64,000 nt of DNA. It comes from Acidobacteriota bacterium (GTDB lineage Bacteria > Acidobacteriota > Polarisedimenticolia > J045). A program made the translations under genes and the position numbers. The notes beneath the pieces are model-generated. The model did no database searches, was not told where the DNA came from, and saw nothing but the letters and a program-made list of their open reading frames with translations. Below are positions 51,380 to 62,577 of the stretch, piece after piece (within the stretch, counting starts at the first letter, position 1; each line of letters begins with the position of its first letter). The stretch covers positions 1 to 64,000 of the forward strand of contig JALOKP010000001.1 of NCBI GenBank assembly GCA_025456425.1, read 5' to 3'.

Positions 51380-54300
51380 CTACGGACAGGCCTGCGGCGA
51401 GGCCGCGATCCCCGGGTCGCGGGGGGCGGCCAGGCCGGCCTGCGCCGATTCGCCGGCGTCGTAGCTGCTGACGCCGGCGCAGTTCGCGGCGCGCACGAGG
51501 TACCAGTGCCCGTCGCCCGGCGCGGGCACCTCCGGCGCCCCCCAGGAGGTCAGCTCGACGTTGTCGATCAGGCACAGGTCGGTCGCCACGCTGAAGTCCC
51601 CGCCGCTGGTCACCAGCAGCGGCAGCCGGCCGCGCAGCACGTCGTAGGTGAGGGCTGCGGGGACGGACGGCCAGCTCAGGATCGCCGAGCCGGAGGAGGG
51701 TGAGCGCTCGGCGCCGAGCTGCAGCGGCCCGTCGGGGACCGGGATGTTGTTGTCGCCGATCCCGTCGCAGTCGTCGTCCAGGTAGTTGCAGACCTCGGGG
51801 CTGGGCTCGCCGGGGGTGCAGACCTCGACCGGCCGGCCGGCCTCGCACACGATCGAGCCCAGCGCCGCGCAGGTGCCGACGCCGCAGACCGTCGGCTGGA
51901 CGGCGTAGTCCTCGTCGACCTGGCCGCTGCAGTCATCGTCCTGTCCGTTGCACGAGGCGTCGTCGGGCGCCGCCGGCGGGCCGGGCACGCAACTGTCCTG
52001 GACCGCCCCGCCCACGCAGGAGGTCGAGCCGACCCGTTCGCAGACGCCGGTGCCGCAGGCGGTGACGAGCGGCAGGTAGCCGTCGTCGACCAGGCCGTCG
52101 CAGTTGTCGTCGACGCCGTCGCAGGTCGTGTCGGAGGGCGCGAGCGGCGGTCCCGGCACGCAGGAGTCGCCCGCCACGCCGTCGACGCAGGAACTGACGC
52201 CGGTCGAGGCGCAGACCCCGAGCCCACAGCTGGTCGGGCCTGCGGCGAATTCCTCGTCCGACTGGCCGTCGCAGTCGTCGTCCAGCGCGTTGCAGGTCGC
52301 GTCGGTCGGCGCGATCGGGTTGCCGGGAGCGCAGGTGTCCTGGACCACCCCGCCGACGCACGAGACCGCGCCCGACCGCGCGCAGACCCCGATGCCGCAG
52401 GTCGTCGGCGTCGTCGGGTAGTCGTCGTCGGCCGTGCCGTCGCAGTCCTCATCGACCGCATCGCAGGTCGCGTCGGTCGGGGAGGGCGGCTCCAGCGGCT
52501 GGCAACTGTCCTGGACCAGCCCGCCGACGCACGCCGTCACGCCGGTGGCGGCGCAGACGCCCGTCCCGCACTGCGTCGCCGCCGGGAGGAAGTCCTCGTC
52601 GAGCGTGCCGTCGAGGTCGTTGTCGAAGGCGTCGCAGCCGTCGACGGGGTGGATCAGCGGGTTGCCGTCGTCGGGGTCGCCCTGGCACTCCGAGACCCCG
52701 TCGCCGTCCGCGTCGTCGAGCGCCGAGGAGGCCAGGAAGTCGGCGTAGTCGACCCCCGCCGTGACGCTCGTGCCCGTTCCCGGCCCGGCGCCCGACGGCC
52801 CGCTCGGCGAGCCCCACCAGTTGCGGCGCGCCAGCAGCGTGTCGGCGGTGTTGTTGACGATCCCGCTGGTGTCGGAAACCAGGTCGGTCCGTTCGAGCTG
52901 CGCGCCGCCGACCCAGTCGGCGACCACGCCCTTCCAGGCGCCGCGGATCGTCGAGCAGGAGACCCGGGTGTCGACCGGCGCGCCGTTGTCGCCGGCCTTG
53001 TGGACCAGGTACAGCCCGGTTCCCGAGTTGTCGATCATGTCGATGGTCGAGCGCTCGACCCGCGTCCGCGCGCTGTCGGCGGCCTCGCACGAGCGGCTGC
53101 CCAGGATCGCGATCGCGCGGTTCACGCCGCGGTTCCCGATCTCCGGGTTGTCGTGGATCCAGGTGTCGCTGGAGGCCTCGATCCAGATGTTCTGCGCGTC
53201 CGGCTCCGGCCACTCGTCGCTGGGCACGCCGTGGACCACGCTGCCCGCGATCTCGGTGGCGTTGGCCCAGCGCAGCTTGATCGAGCGCGTGATGTGGTAG
53301 GTGCTCGAGTTGAGGATCCGGTTGCGGTCCGCCGTGGCGCCGGCTCCGCCCTCGCAGGCTCGCGGGCCGCCGTCGATCAGGAACCCCTCGCGCGAGCGGT
53401 GGCCGCAGCGGTCCTCGTTGTCGCCGTCGCGGATCATCCCGTCCAGGTAGATCTCGTCGAAGGTGTTGTCGTCCGAGTCCCCGCGCACGCGGATCTCGGT
53501 CGTGCCGTTCTCCCGGAGGTCGAGGAACTGGAACAGCGAGTTCTTGACGTTGACCAGGTCGAGCCCGACCTCCGTGTCCTGGTGCCCTCCGTAGCAGGCC
53601 GGCGTCCCCATCCCGGCCCCGTGGATCGTCAGGTAGCGCAGCGTGACGCCGCTGACGCTGGAGAGGGTCAGCGCCGGCCGGCGCGGCCCGCTGAACTGCG
53701 TGCCGTCGATCACGGCGCGGTAGCAGTTGTCGCAGTACGGCAGCGGGATCTTGCCCGGGATCCCCTCGAGGTCGACCGGCCGGGTCATCGTCGCCTGGCC
53801 GCGGATCTCGCCCTCGCCGATCAGGATCAGGCTGCCGGTCGGAGCGGCGTCGAGCGCGGGCTGCAGCGTGTCGTAGCAGGCGCCGGTGGCGCGCGACCAG
53901 CCGCCGGTCTTCGGCGCCTTGGCCAGCACCGGCTGCAGCGTGCGCGCGATGAAGTTGCCGACATCGGCCGGGCCGGTGACGGTGTCCCCGGTTCCGCCCA
54001 CGCCGCCCGGTCCGCCCGGTCCCGAGGCCGCGCCCCACCAGTTGTGGCGGGCATCGACCGGCGCGGTACCGCCGTTCAAGAGCCCCTGTCCGTTGGCGTA
54101 GACGATCGTCTCGTTGATCCGCACGCCGGGCGCGCTCCCGGCCGCGATCTCGATCGCCGGGCCGGTCTGGTTGAAGAACCGGTTCTGCAGCGCGGCGAGC
54201 CCGGTCACGGTGCCGCTCACCGCGAGCCCGCCGTCGTTGCCGCGCATCTCGTTGCAGAAGAACTCGACGCCGTTCGCGCCGTCGATCCAGGCTCCCCGCC

Positions 54301-55129
54301 CGTCGTCGACCGCGCCCAGGCCGGTCTGCCCGGTGAACAGGTTCCCTTCCATCCGCAGGTCGGTGGCGCCGTGGATCTCGACCGCGGCGCGGCCGGAGGC
54401 GAGGATCGCGAGCGCATTGTTCGTGAAGGTGTTGCCGGCCAGCTGGAGCGTCCCGTTGCCGCCGGACGCCAGCTTCACGGCCGGGCCGCCGTTGCCGCTG
54501 AAGTCGTTCTGGCGGATGTCGACGCGGCCGGCCCCGCCGGTGAGCAGCACCCCGACGCCGCCGTTCGCGGAGCCGTCGGCCGCGTGGTTGGCGACGATGT
54601 TGCCCGTGATGCGGATCCAGTCGCCGGCAGCCCCGACCGAGTCGACGACGATGCCCGTGGTGCAACCGGAGACATTCAGGTTCGTGAGCTGGGTGGTGCG
54701 CACCCCCGGGTGCGCCGCGTCGCCGATCCGGATGCAGGCCCGGCCGGGGTTGGGGCCGGTGACCGCGAACCCGTTGAGCTGCGCGCCGGAGGCCAGGATC
54801 CGCACGATGTCGGAGACACCGGCGCCGCGCAGGATCGTGTTGGCGTTGTTGCCCGTGCTGTTGACGTAGACCGCGCGGTCGATCAGCACGTCCTCGGTCC
54901 AGGTCCCCTCGCCGACCTCGACCGCGTCGTTGGCGCAGGCGAGCGCGATGCCGTGGTTGATCGTCCGGCACGGGGAAGCGGAGGACAGGCAGTTGTTGGC
55001 GGCGTCGCTGCCCGTCTGGGCGATCCAGCGGGTGCCGCACTGGGCCCGGGCCGGGACGGACCCGGCGGCGAGGGCCAGTGCGAGGACGGCCAGGGGGAAG
55101 AGCACCCGCATGCGACGCGTCACGGTCAT
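51380..55129 (-). CDS. Secreted right-handed beta-helix protein with tandem MopE-type metal-binding repeats
   Basis: CGTRWIAQTGSDAANNCLSSASPCRTINHGIALACANDAVEVGEGTWTEDVLIDRAVYVNSTGNNANTILRG; C-terminal CDxxDxDCDGxxDxx repeats. Confidence 0.88.
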   Translation of the reverse strand: MTVTRRMRVLFPLAVLALALAAGSVPARAQCGTRWIAQTGSDAANNCLSSASPCRTINHGIALACANDAVEVGEGTWTEDVLIDRAVYVNSTGNNANTILRGAGVSDIVRILASGAQLNGFAVTGPNPGRACIRIGDAAHPGVRTTQLTNLNVSGCTTGIVVDSVGAAGDWIRITGNIVANHAADGSANGGVGVLLTGGAGRVDIRQNDFSGNGGPAVKLASGGNGTLQLAGNTFTNNALAILASGRAAVEIHGATDLRMEGNLFTGQTGLGAVDDGRGAWIDGANGVEFFCNEMRGNDGGLAVSGTVTGLAALQNRFFNQTGPAIEIAAGSAPGVRINETIVYANGQGLLNGGTAPVDARHNWWGAASGPGGPGGVGGTGDTVTGPADVGNFIARTLQPVLAKAPKTGGWSRATGACYDTLQPALDAAPTGSLILIGEGEIRGQATMTRPVDLEGIPGKIPLPYCDNCYRAVIDGTQFSGPRRPALTLSSVSGVTLRYLTIHGAGMGTPACYGGHQDTEVGLDLVNVKNSLFQFLDLRENGTTEIRVRGDSDDNTFDEIYLDGMIRDGDNEDRCGHRSREGFLIDGGPRACEGGAGATADRNRILNSSTYHITRSIKLRWANATEIAGSVVHGVPSDEWPEPDAQNIWIEASSDTWIHDNPEIGNRGVNRAIAILGSRSCEAADSARTRVERSTIDMIDNSGTGLYLVHKAGDNGAPVDTRVSCSTIRGAWKGVVADWVGGAQLERTDLVSDTSGIVNNTADTLLARRNWWGSPSGPSGAGPGTGTSVTAGVDYADFLASSALDDADGDGVSECQGDPDDGNPLIHPVDGCDAFDNDLDGTLDEDFLPAATQCGTGVCAATGVTACVGGLVQDSCQPLEPPSPTDATCDAVDEDCDGTADDDYPTTPTTCGIGVCARSGAVSCVGGVVQDTCAPGNPIAPTDATCNALDDDCDGQSDEEFAAGPTSCGLGVCASTGVSSCVDGVAGDSCVPGPPLAPSDTTCDGVDDNCDGLVDDGYLPLVTACGTGVCERVGSTSCVGGAVQDSCVPGPPAAPDDASCNGQDDDCSGQVDEDYAVQPTVCGVGTCAALGSIVCEAGRPVEVCTPGEPSPEVCNYLDDDCDGIGDNNIPVPDGPLQLGAERSPSSGSAILSWPSVPAALTYDVLRGRLPLLVTSGGDFSVATDLCLIDNVELTSWGAPEVPAPGDGHWYLVRAANCAGVSSYDAGESAQAGLAAPRDPGIAASPQACP
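51737..52571 (-). repeat. Tandem 57-aa (171-bp) repeats, four full plus one degenerate
   Basis: CGTGVCAATGVTACVGGLVQDSCQPLEPPSPTDATCDAVDEDCDGTADDDYPTTPTT and three further units of exactly 57 aa. Confidence 0.85.
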
Positions 55130-55364: not shown

Positions 55365-55522
55365 CTGTTCAAGATCCACCACCCCTCCGGCCACACCCCT
55401 CCGGACCGGATCGCGGGTCCGCCGGCTGCCGAGCCAGGCTTGATCCGTCCCGGCCCCAGGCGTATAGGAGGGCCGCGGAGCAGTGCTGCCAGCAGTCGAG
55501 GCGTCCAGGGGGAGGACCCACG

Positions 55523-58500
55523 CTGCAGATCGGTCCGTACCAAGTCGAGCGCCTGCTGGGTAGAGGGGGCATGGGCGAGGTCTTCCTCGCCCGGGACACG
55601 CGGCTGGACCGCCCGGTCGCGATCAAGGCGGTACATCCCGACCTGCTCGCCCGCCCCGACGTCCGCGCCCGGTTTGTGCGCGAAGCCCGCATCGCGGCAT
55701 CGATCGTCAATCCCTTCGTCGCCACCGTCTTCGACGTGCTCGAGCAGGAAGACAGGACCTTCCTCGTCATGGAGTACCTCGAGGGCCGGTCCCTGGCCGA
55801 CGCCGAGAGAGACGGGAGCGTCGGGATCGACCAGCGCCTCGCGTGGTGCGCCGAACTGGCTGACGCCCTGCGCGCGGTACACGAGCACGGACTCGTCCAC
55901 CGCGACGTCAAGCCCACGAATGTCATCGTCACGAGCAGCGGACACGTGAAGCTGCTCGACTTCGGCCTGGCGCGAGCGGCCTCCGTTTCCCCCGTGCCGG
56001 ACTCGACCGCCGCCACTGCGGACGAATCGCTGACGCATCACGGCGCGGTCGTCGGAACGATTGCGTACATGTCTCCCGAGCAGTTGCGGGCCCAGGAACT
56101 CGGGCCCGCCAGCGATCTGTTCTCGCTCGCCGTCGTCGGTTTCGAGCTGACGACAGGTGTGCACCCGTTCCGCCGCGAGACGCAGGCCGAGACGATCAGC
56201 GCGATTCTCTCGGAGCCGCCCGCCGAGCGGGAAGCGTCGCGCACATTCGACAGTACGCCCGGTCTGCGCGCGGTCCTGGAGCGCGGGCTGCGAAAGCGCC
56301 CCGAGGAGCGCTACGCCAGCGCGGAGGAACTGGCGGAGGACCTGCGGCGGGTCCAGCGCGGCGAGTGGACCCGGGCACGCGGCGCCGCGGATGCGTTACG
56401 CCGCCGTCGCCTCGCCCTGGTGCTCGCGATCGTCACCGTGCCGACGCTGGCGGGGGCGGCCGCCGGCTGGCAGTGGCTGCGCACGCCGCCACGACGGGAC
56501 GAGCCGCGGGTCGCGATCGCGGTCGCGGCCCTGGAGGACCGCACCGGGGAGCCCGACGGTGCGGTGCGGGCGACGATGGTCGCGGACCTGATCTCGACCG
56601 ACCTCTCGGCCTCGCGGCTGGCGCGGGTGCGCGGGCCGGCCCAACTCGCGGAAGTGCTCGGCAGGTCGCGGGTCCGCCTCGACCCCGTCTCGGCGCGGCG
56701 CTTCGCCCAGACCCTCGGCCTCGACTACCTCCTCACAGGCACGCTCTACCGCGACGGCGCCCGTTACGTCGCGACCCTCGAGTCGGTGCCGGCGGAGGGC
56801 CGAGTCGAGCTGGCCGCGGTGCGCGCCGAGGCGGGCGATGCGCTGGAACTGGCGGAGCGTCTCTCGTCCCAGCTCCGGGCGATGCTGCCCGGCGTCGGCC
56901 GCCTGACCGCCTGGCGCGACGACCAGGTCGATCTGGCCGGCCTGACCTCCGACTCGGAAGAGGCCCGGCTGCTGTTCGAACGGGGCCAGGCGGCGATGCG
57001 CGACGGGAAGCTCAACGAGGCGATCGCGCGGCTCGAGGCGGCGGTCCAGGCGGATGCCGGTTTCGCGATGGCCTACGGTCGGCTCGCCGAGGCCTTCGAT
57101 GAGGCGGGCTACGGCTCCAAGGCGCGCGACGCGGCCACGCGGGCGATGGAGCTGGCGCCCGGCGCCGACACGCCCGAGGGTGAACGGCAGGCGCTGACGC
57201 TGAAGGCGATCTGGGCCCGGACCTTCGGCCGTACCAGCGAAGCCGTCGACGCAACCGCGGCGTTGGTCGAGCGCTTCCCCGACGAAGCGAACCTGCTGCG
57301 CCTGCACGCTGGAGCTCTGGCCGACGCCGGACGGCTCCCGGAGAGCGTCGCCACGCTGCAGCGCGCGATCGAACGCGAGCCGGCCGATCCCTCGCTGCAC
57401 CTGGCGCGGGCCGAGACGCTGATCCTCGCCGATCAGCCGCTCCGCGCGGCCGCCGAACTGGACGCGGCGGAGCGGCTCTACGGGCAGCTCGACAGCGCCG
57501 AGGGGCTGGCCGCGACGACCTTCACGCGGGGTCAGGTGGCCGTGATGTCGGCCGACTTCGGCGCGGCCGGGCCGGCCTTCGCGTCGGCTGCGGACCAGTT
57601 CGAGCGGGCCGGACGCACGGTCGGCGCCACCCGCGCGGAGATGGAGTTTGCGGCCAACGAGCTGCGGCTGGGCCGGCCGCGCGAGGCCGACCGCGCGCTG
57701 CAGAAGGCCGAGGCAACGGCGCGCGCGACCGGCCACCTGGCCTTGCTGAACGAGGTGTTGCTGCGCCGCGGCGTGCAGGCCTACCTGCAGAGCGACTTCG
57801 GCCAGGCGGAGCGGCTGATGCGCGAGTCGCTCGACCTGGCGCGGCAACTGCAAGACGAACCGCTGATGCTCGATCCGCTCGTCAACCTGGGCAGCCTGTT
57901 CCAGTACACCGGGCGCGCGGCGGACGCCGGGCCGATGCTGGCGGAAGCGCTCGACCTGGCGCGCAAGCTGGATCGGCCCGACATGGCGGTGACGAGCGCG
58001 GCGATGCTGGCCGATCTCCGCTATCAGGCGGGAGAGATCGAGGCCGCCATCCAGCTCTACCGCGAGGTGACGGGCGATGCGCCGCCGGAGAAGGCCTCGC
58101 AGGCGGCCGGGTGGGGCTGGGCCGGGCTGGCAGAAATCTTCGAGCGGCAGGGACGACTCGCCGAGGCCCTCGACAGTGCCACGCGCGCCGCGGCCGTGTT
58201 CGACGCACGCGCGTTGCCCGCCTATGTCGCGTACGCGAACCTGCGCCGCGCGCAGCTCCTGGCCGCGCTGGGCCGCGACGGCGAGGCGCAGGACGAGATC
58301 GAAGCGGCTCACCGCGCGGCGCGCAAGGCGCGCGGGCTGGCCGACCTCGAGGCGCGAGTCGAGCTGGCGCGCGGGATCGCGTCGGCCTACGCCGGCCGGT
58401 GGGACGACGCCCGGCGCGCGGCCCGCCGGGTGCAGTCGATGCCGGGCGGAAGCGTGGCCATGCTGCGCATCCTGGCGCTGGAGCTGGAAGCGGAGGCCGC

Positions 58501-58918
58501 GCTCCGGCGGGGTCGCAAGAGCGAGGCCCGCCAGGCCTGCGATGCCGCGCTCGCCCTGAACGGGGCCCCGCGACCGGATCGAGTCGACACCGTCGCGCTG
58601 CGGGCCGAGGTCCTGGCGGCGTCCGGGGACCACGCCGCCGCAGCGGCCGCGGCCCGGGAAGCGTTCACCGAAGCGGAGCGGATGGAGCTGCGGCTGGCCA
58701 CCGCGCGCGCTGCGGCGGTGCTGGTGGCCGAGAGGGCAGGGAACGAGTCGGAACGCGCGGTCTGGCGCCAACGAGGCCTGGCCGCGCTCGACGCATACGA
58801 GGCGGGGGCGCCTCCCGAGAGTCGGGAGCGCGTCGCCGCGCGAGTCGATCTGCAGCGGATGCGGGCCGCGCTGGGGGGCGGTTCGGCCGCTGCCGAAAAC
58901 CAGGGGAGGGGTCCATGA
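55523..58918 (+). CDS. Serine/threonine protein kinase with TM helix and long TPR region; probable CTG start
   Basis: LQIGPYQVERLLGRGGMGEVFLARDTRLDRPVAIKAV, VHRDVKPTNVIV, LLDFGLARA; SD GGGGGAGG 7 nt before CTG at 55523; no nearby in-frame ATG/GTG/TTG. Confidence 0.9.
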   Translation: MQIGPYQVERLLGRGGMGEVFLARDTRLDRPVAIKAVHPDLLARPDVRARFVREARIAASIVNPFVATVFDVLEQEDRTFLVMEYLEGRSLADAERDGSVGIDQRLAWCAELADALRAVHEHGLVHRDVKPTNVIVTSSGHVKLLDFGLARAASVSPVPDSTAATADESLTHHGAVVGTIAYMSPEQLRAQELGPASDLFSLAVVGFELTTGVHPFRRETQAETISAILSEPPAEREASRTFDSTPGLRAVLERGLRKRPEERYASAEELAEDLRRVQRGEWTRARGAADALRRRRLALVLAIVTVPTLAGAAAGWQWLRTPPRRDEPRVAIAVAALEDRTGEPDGAVRATMVADLISTDLSASRLARVRGPAQLAEVLGRSRVRLDPVSARRFAQTLGLDYLLTGTLYRDGARYVATLESVPAEGRVELAAVRAEAGDALELAERLSSQLRAMLPGVGRLTAWRDDQVDLAGLTSDSEEARLLFERGQAAMRDGKLNEAIARLEAAVQADAGFAMAYGRLAEAFDEAGYGSKARDAATRAMELAPGADTPEGERQALTLKAIWARTFGRTSEAVDATAALVERFPDEANLLRLHAGALADAGRLPESVATLQRAIEREPADPSLHLARAETLILADQPLRAAAELDAAERLYGQLDSAEGLAATTFTRGQVAVMSADFGAAGPAFASAADQFERAGRTVGATRAEMEFAANELRLGRPREADRALQKAEATARATGHLALLNEVLLRRGVQAYLQSDFGQAERLMRESLDLARQLQDEPLMLDPLVNLGSLFQYTGRAADAGPMLAEALDLARKLDRPDMAVTSAAMLADLRYQAGEIEAAIQLYREVTGDAPPEKASQAAGWGWAGLAEIFERQGRLAEALDSATRAAAVFDARALPAYVAYANLRRAQLLAALGRDGEAQDEIEAAHRAARKARGLADLEARVELARGIASAYAGRWDDARRAARRVQSMPGGSVAMLRILALELEAEAALRRGRKSEARQACDAALALNGAPRPDRVDTVALRAEVLAASGDHAAAAAAAREAFTEAERMELRLATARAAAVLVAERAGNESERAVWRQRGLAALDAYEAGAPPESRERVAARVDLQRMRAALGGGSAAAENQGRGP

Positions 58919-59490
58919 AGCTCGCAGTCGTGCTCCTGCAGATTCTGTTGTTGGTCACCATCACAGCAGTGGTGGCGGGGGGGGGCGCGCAGTCCGGGCC
59001 GCCGGATACTCCACAGGAGACGCCCAAGTCTGGGGATGGGCCGGGCCCCGGACCCGCCCCGGGACCGATCGTCGTGATCAAGGGCGGCACCGGAGGCGCC
59101 GGCATCTCCTTCCAAGTGGACGAGATCGCACAGACGGCGGGTTCGCCCACGACTGGCTTGCTGCGCGGGGACTTCATCGGCCAATCCGTGAGGTCACTGG
59201 AGTGCAAGAACAGGACGACGGGGATCTGGGGCCCTGCCAGCAGCATCAGCATCACCGACGAGGGCGATCAGGTCTATCGGCTGGTGATCGAGAAGACGGC
59301 ACAGAAGACGCTCTGGTGGACGCTGGAAGAGAAGCAGCCGTCGCCGCCCCGTACGATCGCGCTCCGGCCCTCCAACCCGACGCCAGGGAAGGTCCCAGCG
59401 CAGTTTCTCGAACTCTCGGCTGGGACGATGAGGACCGGAGCGAATGTCGCCTGCTCTGAAGTCAGGTTCCAGGTCAACGTGGCGGAGTAG
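58915..59490 (+). CDS. Exported or membrane-anchored protein of unknown function (191 aa)
   Basis: MKLAVVLLQILLLVTITAVVAGGG signal/anchor; ATGA overlap with kinase. Confidence 0.8.
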   Translation: MKLAVVLLQILLLVTITAVVAGGGAQSGPPDTPQETPKSGDGPGPGPAPGPIVVIKGGTGGAGISFQVDEIAQTAGSPTTGLLRGDFIGQSVRSLECKNRTTGIWGPASSISITDEGDQVYRLVIEKTAQKTLWWTLEEKQPSPPRTIALRPSNPTPGKVPAQFLELSAGTMRTGANVACSEVRFQVNVAE

Positions 59491-59495
59491 CGACG

Positions 59496-60080
59496 ATGTG
59501 CCGCAGTTCCTGCTTTGGGCTGCTTCTCCTGGCGACTGTGTGCCCCGGTGAGCACTGCCCCAGGCCCTTGGACGAGAGAATCTGCCATGCCGCATTGGCA
59601 TGGAAGATCGAGAACTCGCTCCACGGGGAGTACGCCCCCCTGAACGGGGACGAGCGCGTCCTTGGGCTGGTCTATGTCGGACCCGACGAGTTCGGGCCCG
59701 GATCGGCCACGCTTCAGCTCGTTTCGGACGGCATTCTGCCGCCCGCGTCGACCCGGCCTGAGCATCCTTCGGACGCGTTGCGGGAGGCTGGCTACTACGT
59801 GGGCACCTTCACCGCAGCCGATCAACCGCGCTTTCTGGCTCGCCTGGGAGCGCGAAGCGCGGTGCTCGGGGAGGGCGCCGTGGACGGTGGGCTGAGCGCC
59901 GTCCTCGAGGAGCCCGATAAGGTGGTCCTCGCCGGGCGGATTCCCTTCGTTGGCGACGACTATGTTGCGATGTTCGATGCTCGTGACGGGAAGGTGATGC
60001 AGGTTCGCTGGTCGTACAAGCTGGAGAAGAACCTGCGGACATCACAGTTGCCGCAGGCCGGCAGATGGGTGAGTCCATGA
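59496..60080 (+). CDS. Exported protein of unknown function (194 aa)
   Basis: MCRSSCFGLLLLATVCPGEHC signal-like start; 5-nt gap from the preceding stop. Confidence 0.75.
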   Translation: MCRSSCFGLLLLATVCPGEHCPRPLDERICHAALAWKIENSLHGEYAPLNGDERVLGLVYVGPDEFGPGSATLQLVSDGILPPASTRPEHPSDALREAGYYVGTFTAADQPRFLARLGARSAVLGEGAVDGGLSAVLEEPDKVVLAGRIPFVGDDYVAMFDARDGKVMQVRWSYKLEKNLRTSQLPQAGRWVSP

Positions 60081-61324
60081 GCGCCCGGGCCGGACTGGCC
60101 GCAACGCTGCTCCTCCTCGCCGCCGGCGCGTCCACGGCATCTCCCTGCCCGACCGTCCACTGGATCGTCAAGGGCCAGGACCCGAAGATCACGTACAACA
60201 TCCTCTTCCTCGGGGCTGGTTTCGGGGAAGACGATCTGCCCGCATTCCGGACGGTCGTCCAGGAACTAGCCTCGCAACTCCTTGAGCGCCCATCGTTCGC
60301 ACCATACAGCGGTTGGATCAATGTCTACAGGATGGACTTGGTGAGCAGCAGCGATGTCGATGTCGGAAGCTGCCCAGAGGGTTGCATCGGCGGAACGCCG
60401 CTAGCCACCGAGATCGACGAGCGAGTTGATGCAGTCTCCAGCAACGGAGGATCGGAGGACACGTTGGAGATCGATCTGGTGGCGCGGCGCTGCTGGCTCT
60501 CCCCAACAAGCCCCCCAAAAAAGCTCGGGAACTGCAACCTCGTCTGGCTCGACGCCGAAGACCGAGCCACCGTGTTGAAGCTGCAATTCTGCGCGCCCCA
60601 TATCAAGGCTGTCGTCGTCGTCGCGAACCTACGCGCCCTCGTGGGAGGGGGGGAGGAGGACCCCTTCTCGGCTGGGGTTGGTCTGACGGTTGTCGGATAT
60701 TCCCCGGGGGCCGAGGACGGCGATTCGTTGGCAGGCCCCTCGGCAGTAGCTCTGCTGGAGCACGAGTTCGGCCACCTGTTCGGCCTCTACGACGAGTACG
60801 TCACGGCTGCGGGCGCACCGCGAGGGGAATTCCACGCCGACCGAAACGTCTGGAGACCGATGGCGCCCGACGAGACGCAATCCGTCCTCGCCGATGCGAG
60901 GCACGACTACGAGAGATGCAAGCGATGGAGCCTTCGCACGGGCGAGCTGGCGCCGCCGATCCCGTGGCAGGCCACACTGGACGCGCACTGCAAGGAGCTG
61001 GGTCTCGGGATCTGCGAGAAGGAGCTCGGTCCTGGTCGGGAATACTGCGTCTGGAGTCCCTCGGAGGATCCCTGCGAGGTCACAGAGGCCGCGGAGGCCC
61101 CAGGGCTGTGGGAGGGAGCCTATTACAGCGAGGGGTGCTTCCACCGGGCGAAGTACAGTTGCCTGATGAGGGTGGCCTCACCCGACGATAAGCCGTGCGA
61201 GGCCTGCCAGCGACAGATCCATAGGGCCCTGTGCGGTCTAATACCCGGTGCGGAGAAATGCGGCGCGCAGTACGTGCCGCCCGCCGGAGAGCAGCGGATG
61301 GAGGAGAGTTCACCAGCCCAGTAG
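60077..61324 (+). CDS. Secreted M64-like zinc metallopeptidase
   Basis: LLEHEFGHLFGLYDEYV (HExxH...DEY) and C-terminal WEGAYYSEGCFHRAKYSCLMR...PCEACQRQI; ATGA overlap with preceding gene (60065 alternative start). Confidence 0.82.
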   Translation: MSARAGLAATLLLLAAGASTASPCPTVHWIVKGQDPKITYNILFLGAGFGEDDLPAFRTVVQELASQLLERPSFAPYSGWINVYRMDLVSSSDVDVGSCPEGCIGGTPLATEIDERVDAVSSNGGSEDTLEIDLVARRCWLSPTSPPKKLGNCNLVWLDAEDRATVLKLQFCAPHIKAVVVVANLRALVGGGEEDPFSAGVGLTVVGYSPGAEDGDSLAGPSAVALLEHEFGHLFGLYDEYVTAAGAPRGEFHADRNVWRPMAPDETQSVLADARHDYERCKRWSLRTGELAPPIPWQATLDAHCKELGLGICEKELGPGREYCVWSPSEDPCEVTEAAEAPGLWEGAYYSEGCFHRAKYSCLMRVASPDDKPCEACQRQIHRALCGLIPGAEKCGAQYVPPAGEQRMEESSPAQ

Positions 61325-61347
61325 ACCACCCGGCCCGCCACAACGTT

Positions 61348-61381
61348 GCCGGCGGCGGAGCGCTTCCGCCCCGCCGCCGGC
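61348..61381. terminator. Hairpin between convergent genes, possibly bidirectional
   Basis: Perfect 11-bp stem GCCGGCGGCGG-N12-CCGCCGCCGGC. Confidence 0.55.
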
Positions 61382-61395
61382 CGATCCACTAAGAC

Positions 61396-62577
61396 CTAGT
61401 AGTCCGTGAACAGCAGCAGGTCCGGCGAGCCGGTCCCCGCGTTCGCCACGACGCCCGTCGTCGCGTTCCCGGTCAGCGCCGCCGCCACCTGGGCCGGCGT
61501 CGCGCCGGGATTGCGCTGCAGGTAGAGCGCGGCCACGCCCGCGACGTGCGGTGCGGCCATCGAGGTCCCGCTCATCGTCGTCGTGGCGGTGTCCGAGCTG
61601 TTGTAGGTCGACTTGACCCCCTCGCCCGGGGCGAACAGGTCGAGGCAGCCGCCGTAGTTGGAGAACCCGGCGCGGCTGTCGCCCGAGTTCGTGGCGCCGA
61701 CCGTCAGCGCGGCCGGAACGCGCGCCGGCGAGGTGAAGCAGGCGTCGGCGCTGCTGTTGCCGGCCGCGATGGCATAGGTCACGCCGGCCGCGATCGAGCG
61801 CTGCACCGCGTCGTCGAGCGAGGTCGAGGCGCTGCCCCCCAGGCTCATGTTGGCGACCGCCGGCTTGCGGTGGTTGGAGGTCACCCAGTCGACCCCCGCG
61901 ACCACACCCGAGGTCGTCCCCGAGCCGAAGCAGTTGAGCACGCGGACCGGGTACAGGTTGACCTTCTTCGCCACACCGTAAGGCTTGCTGCCGACCGTGC
62001 CCGCGGTGTGCGTGCCGTGGCCGTTGCAGTCGCTGGTGCCGCGGCCGTCGTTGATCGAGCTGTAGCCCGCGCGCACGCGGCCGCCGAAGTCGACATGGGT
62101 GGAGCGGATCCCGGTGTCCAGGATGTAGGCGTGCACGCCGGTGCCGTTCACGGAGTAGGTGTAGTCGCCGCTCGACGGCAGCGCGCGCTGGTCGATGCGA
62201 TCCAGGCCCCAGGTCGGGTTGGGCTGCGTCGCGTCGGCGGTGACGATCCCGTCCTCCTCGACGTACCGTACCCGCTCGTCGCGCGCCAGCCGCTCCGCGG
62301 CCTCGGCGTTCAGGTTGATCGAGAAGCCGTCGAGTGCGGCGTGGTAGACGAAACCGACCGTTCCGCCATAGGCGAAGGCCAGCTCGCGCGCGAGCTGGTC
62401 CACGGTGGGCAGCAGGGCCGCGCTGCCGAATGTGCCCTTCAGCGCCGAGGGCTCGAGCACCACGATGTAGCTCCCCGCGACCGGCTGGGCGCTGCGCAGG
62501 ACCGGGCCGTTCCCGGCGAGCGCGGCTCCCGTGACGGCCACGGTGGCGAGCAGTACGAGGATCCTGTCCATCCGCAT
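61396..62577 (-). CDS. Secreted S8 (proteinase K/aqualysin-like) protease
   Basis: I9-like propeptide [62 protein letters not shown]. Confidence 0.95.

Follow-up and report, generated by a model that had tools for sequence, protein, structure and literature searches.

Positions 55,523 to 61,324 of the window (the whole 64,000-nt stretch analysed) hold four linked genes on the plus strand, a kinase gene (A), two small genes (B and C) and a peptidase gene (D), whose reading frames were all confirmed in the window sequence. The genes and their features are:

55510..55516, plus strand: Shine-Dalgarno-like GGGAGGA 5' of gene A, seen in the sequence; GGGAGG ends 7 nt before CTG 55523
55523..58918, plus strand: gene A, 1131 aa, Hanks-type Ser/Thr kinase with one transmembrane (TM) segment and a TPR C-terminal region (Pkinase, 2.4e-44, and several TPR families)
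55538..56326, plus strand: kinase domain of A (PF00069, residues 6-268), expected to be cytoplasmic
56408..56482, plus strand: single TM segment of A with Arg residues ahead of it (hydropathy; residues about 296-320)
56945..58897, plus strand: TPR region of A (Pfam TPR matches), expected to lie outside the membrane
58915..59490, plus strand: gene B, 191 aa (open reading frame), with an N-terminal hydrophobic anchor, a Pro/Gly-rich linker and a conserved domain
59496..60080, plus strand: gene C, 194 aa, looks exported; its homologues are N-terminal domains, or companions encoded upstream, of other M64-type peptidases
60077..61324, plus strand: gene D, 415 aa, exported, a predicted M64-like zinc peptidase with 17 Cys (PF09471, 37.7 bits against a cut-off of 26)
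60761..60799, plus strand: zinc motif HEFGHLFGLYDEY of D (HEXXHXXGXXD), with H, E, H, G and D invariant in five D proteins
61160..61207, plus strand: CxM...CxxC tail of D, with C362, C374 and C377 invariant in the five proteins; it aligns with the tail of a classical M64
61348..61381, plus strand: GC-rich hairpin between D and a convergent subtilase gene (fold of 61318-61402, -33.7 kcal/mol, z -3.0)

The ATG of B at 58915 overlaps the stop codon of A (58916-58918) in the sequence ATGA, the stop codon of B ends at 59490 and is followed after a 5-nt gap by the ATG of C at 59496, and the stop codon of C (60078-60080) overlaps the ATG of D at 60077 in a second ATGA. An earlier note on this DNA had proposed a coupled four-gene set, and all three junctions lie exactly where it placed them. 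The window has no ATG, GTG or TTG near the expected start of A. CTG 55523 is the best candidate and the probable start as judged from the sequence; use of the first downstream ATG (55571) would cost part of the glycine loop. The lack of a usual start codon could mean that a rare one is used or that the sequence contains an error. The hairpin downstream of D has no T run in its sequence and is a possible transcript end. The GC3 of B, C and D (window 58915-61324) is 0.78-0.83, compared with 0.89 for A and 0.96 for the flanking genes. Both flanks are encoded on the minus strand, with a 1243-aa exported Cys-rich protein bearing DxDxDG-type repeats at 51380-55111 and the convergent S8 subtilase, which has an I9 propeptide, at 61396-62577.

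The kinase domain of A contains the Gly loop, VAIK, HRD (HRDVKPTN) and DFG motifs expected of Hanks-type kinases. It scored 251 bits, from the kinase part only, against the PknB/PASTA cut-off of 450, and A has TPR instead of PASTA repeats. The TPR region, put at about 700 residues in the earlier note, is real and spans about 650-670 residues by Pfam. Since a kinase domain is followed by one TM segment preceded by Arg and then by the TPR region, A is expected to have its kinase domain inside and its TPR region outside. In the A homologue of one genome (G033), the region preceding the TPR shows a weak resemblance to TolB_N.

D was searched for in 120 relatives, and a D profile was run against 396 genomes of the phylum and all 41 genomes of the window's class. 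Five clear D members were obtained, from G000 (the window's genome), G002, G025, G020 and G033; outside the class, absence refers to a sample of the phylum. B-C-D is present in 5 of the 41 class genomes, always in the same order and in four cases behind a related TPR kinase. The kinase-B-C-D order of the window recurs in G002 (L010) and G025 (L013), and G033 (L053) has kinase-B followed by a fusion of C and D. The neighbour of the B-C-D set in G020 (L011) is a divergent kinase, which is of a different TPR type and lies outside the A subfamily. A 4-nt C-D overlap was found in all four unfused loci, and spacing is tight in most loci. A C profile built before the G033 locus was known gave strong matches only in D loci among the 120 relatives, as did a B profile within the window's class. 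Kinases of the A subfamily occur in 6 of the 41 class genomes, and their association with C-D gives a Fisher p of about 7e-4 when presence alone is counted. Two of the genomes with D are incomplete (G002, 74% complete; G000, 85%). Because the order recurs in other genomes, the linkage of the four genes is more than chance, and the A-B-C-D architecture is well supported. The earlier note would have been refuted had the companions never accompanied the kinase/peptidase pair in other genomes; they do co-occur with it, and the self-contained unit that the note had suggested does recur. A-B-C-D appears to be a conserved unit for signalling at the cell surface. Literature searches found no published kinase/M64 operon.

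The kinase subfamily was delineated with a profile of the TPR region (A9). Scoring of some best candidates per genome, a procedure by which more distant members may be missed, gave at least eight loci at E <= 1e-207, all in the window's class, with the next match at 2e-69. Four of these kinases are at C-D loci; the others are in G001 and G009 and as second copies in G025 and G002, the G002 kinase genes being readable in part only (N stretches or a truncated frame). B or a B homologue lies directly downstream of all eight, including the four that have no C-D. Comparison of B with the four B-like proteins of the kinase-only loci, which like the comparisons of C below rests on few and diverged rows, gave P 2.3e-7 for the full proteins; with the mature parts only, the score was 41.5 and the best of 60 shuffles reached 13.6. 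Since B follows every subfamily kinase with or without C-D, it is a constant partner of the kinase subfamily, and it is the kinase, not the peptidase alone, to which B is tied. As half of the kinases in the subfamily lack a C-D peptidase alongside, the kinase-B pair does not require it. An N-terminal hydrophobic stretch is present in 5 of 9 B proteins; B may not be exported in every genome, because the predicted starts in G020, G001, G009 and G002b lack an anchor. Single-sequence AlphaFold modelling of B had very low confidence (mean pLDDT 40.5).

In the kinase tree, kinases with C-D do not form a clade; the one in G025 is sister (98/98) to the G025 paralogue whose B precedes another exported pair, of 364 aa and 748 aa with an HxxxD...HxH pattern (L093 6783-10120, G025:C104). 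We found no relatives of this pair elsewhere in the window's class. The HxxxD...HxH metal-site pattern recalls M23 peptidases, but this likeness found no backing in Pfam and PDB searches. It is possible, and we would put it no higher than that, that a TPR receptor kinase and B form a constant core with an exchangeable exported pair, C-D at four loci, the HxxxD...HxH pair at one and none at three.

Two other arrangements were observed around more distant kinases. A second but more distantly related member of the kinase clade is encoded in the window's genome, ahead of two small proteins (L103 7324-7863 and 8016-8576, G000:C164) that have N-terminal hydrophobic anchors and resemble each other; they were set aside as B homologues, homology being undetectable by comparison with B. 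Exported proteins of about 680-820 aa lie behind more distant TPR kinases in three genomes (L104 4512-6977, G033:C8; L105 4514-6559, G016:C46; L106 5483-7636, G030:C16). They look mutually related and represent another kinase/exported-protein pairing.

The two middle proteins had been described in the earlier note as unknown. Neither B nor C matches a Pfam or NCBIfam family above noise, but B proved to be the kinase partner and C to be related to the N-terminal domains of M64-type enzymes. In G033, C and D are fused in one 684-residue protein. Domains of similar pattern are present at the N-terminus of other M64-type peptidases of the phylum (L014, L015, L070 and L071). In profile-profile comparisons of 4 or 5 C rows against 7-8 other M64-linked N-domains, whose segment borders were picked by eye, local matches in the same register over 69 columns were obtained with P of 6e-6 to 3e-5. 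The real scores were 34-38, and 150 shuffled or reversed controls for each of the four comparisons reached maxima of 17-20 in all but one, where a single shuffle scored 139.9, above the real value, an outlier without explanation. Set directly against classical PF16217-type domains, C gave no match, and the AlphaFold model from the single C sequence again had very low confidence (mean pLDDT 37.2). Because of the G033 fusion and the match to M64-linked N-domains, the best reading of C is that of an N-terminal domain split off from an M64-like enzyme. At L012, L054 and L068, other M64 genes of the phylum are directly preceded by a small gene (4-nt ATGA overlap in L012 and L068), which looks like a split N-terminal domain too.

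D carries LLEHEFGHLFGLYDEY together with the C-terminal CxM...CxxC tail found in M64 enzymes. All five D proteins match PF09471 at the threshold used, and a profile of the five retrieved 3p1v (2.9e-17) and 4df9 (3.5e-16) from the PDB. The earlier note had called D an M64-like metallopeptidase; the PF09471 match and the Cys tail bear this out, and the zinc motif is one residue short and the proteins form a clade of their own. M64 clusters retain HEXXHXXXGXXD according to a 2025 survey (PMC12402451). D lacks this hallmark: all five D proteins have HEXXHXXGXXD, and the spacing is one residue longer in all 25 other M64 rows compared. In a tree with these 25 rows, the five D proteins form one group with support of 99/98, a placement that carries a long-branch warning. 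For want of the hallmark we do not file D as a plain M64 member; by its sequence it is M64-like, a divergent sister clade of M64. D probably works like an M64 peptidase, and its zinc-dependent activity is predicted from the HExxH...D residues present. The D proteins contain 17-23 Cys, and most C and D proteins have hydrophobic or lipobox-like N-termini. Neither the D proteins nor the G033 fusion matched PF16217 (M64_N), and tblastn of D against plasmids gave no match. Members of M64 differ in substrate (PMC12402451), and the sequences studied here lend no support to IgA or mucin as a substrate of D.

The reading that we tentatively favour, at somewhat less than even probability, is an envelope signalling operon working from the outside in. 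A would be a receptor-type Ser/Thr kinase with its kinase domain inside, one TM helix and its TPR region outside, and B, usually membrane-anchored, would be the constant partner of the outer TPR region. C and D would together make one exported zinc peptidase whose N-terminal domain has been split off as C, most likely acting on a protein outside the inner membrane. As the TPR region is expected outside and D and most C proteins look exported, TPR, B, C and D could meet there. The TPR-B ectodomain would then bind the C-D complex, its substrate or its products, and the kinase would report the extracellular proteolytic event to the cytoplasm. The earlier note had supposed signalling in the other direction, from kinase to protease. 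That part is not borne out: the membrane is expected to separate the cytoplasmic kinase domain from the exported peptidase, so the kinase is unlikely to phosphorylate it directly.

An indirect route from kinase to peptidase would accommodate that separation. The kinase could act inside-out, using a cytoplasmic regulator such as a sigma factor to control expression of the peptidase genes behind it; the operon would then be a regulated secretion unit, with TPR-B sensing something unrelated to proteolysis. A kinase-sigma pair of this kind, PknS-EcfK, is described for Xanthomonas citri (PMC13147305), and in G033 the kinase gene has a divergently oriented neighbour that encodes an ECF sigma factor (PF07638, 3.3e-38). 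G033 is the exception, however, as neither in the window nor at the other loci read was a sigma gene recognised beside the kinase, and the subfamily has as many kinases lacking this peptidase as kinases having it; we regard this route as rather unlikely. The scattered position of the C-D kinases in the tree and the lower GC3 of B, C and D than of A and the flanks would also fit a stand-alone exported peptidase cassette, C-D or B-C-D, that has settled behind a kinase and shares its transcript while serving a separate pathway. G020, with B-C-D and no subfamily kinase, would fit it too, yet this genome also has a TPR kinase next door. The presence of B behind all eight subfamily kinases, and of four of the five C-D pairs behind a kinase found in so few genomes, argues against this arrangement and makes it distinctly unlikely.

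The patchy occurrence of the unit (5 of 41 genomes), the rapid divergence of B and C (identity of about 15-25%) and the different exported pair behind the G025 paralogue would be in keeping with defence or inter-bacterial antagonism, the secreted peptidase being an effector and the kinase with B a sensor or immunity part. We consider this improbable, since the loci read showed no link to secretion systems, toxins or mobile elements and D resembles an extracellular peptidase family.

Little is known of what bacterial receptor kinases with TPR ectodomains sense. The ectodomain of the A subfamily is accompanied throughout by B and, in half of the loci, by a dedicated exported peptidase, which makes concrete interaction and cleavage tests possible. 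The M64 family, known chiefly from gut enzymes that cleave IgA, is extended by the D proteins, a related clade in which the zinc motif is altered and the N-terminal domain is split off.

Compared with known systems, A shares a kinase domain, one TM segment and an expected extracytoplasmic repeat region with Hanks-type membrane Ser/Thr kinases, both PknB/PASTA and TPR-bearing. It differs from the PknB/PASTA kinases in its repeats and in scoring far below the cut-offs of the PknB_PASTA and StpK7 models, and the constant small partner gene B is a feature of the A locus. PknS-EcfK is alike in joining a membrane Hanks kinase to a regulator, as the ECF sigma gene beside the G033 kinase would, whereas the window kinase has no recognised sigma neighbour and instead an exported peptidase pair. 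With the M64 metallopeptidases (PF09471; BF3526/4df9, 3p1v and the ThomasA IgA protease) D has in common the family match, a NIVFLGDGF-type region and the C-terminal CxM...CxxC; it is set apart by the shorter zinc motif, the separate clade, the genetic link to a kinase and an N-terminal domain encoded by a separate gene in four of the five loci. In the C-D fusion, C stands before the catalytic domain just as M64_N (PF16217) does, but its supported relatives are the N-domains and upstream genes of other, non-classical M64 enzymes.
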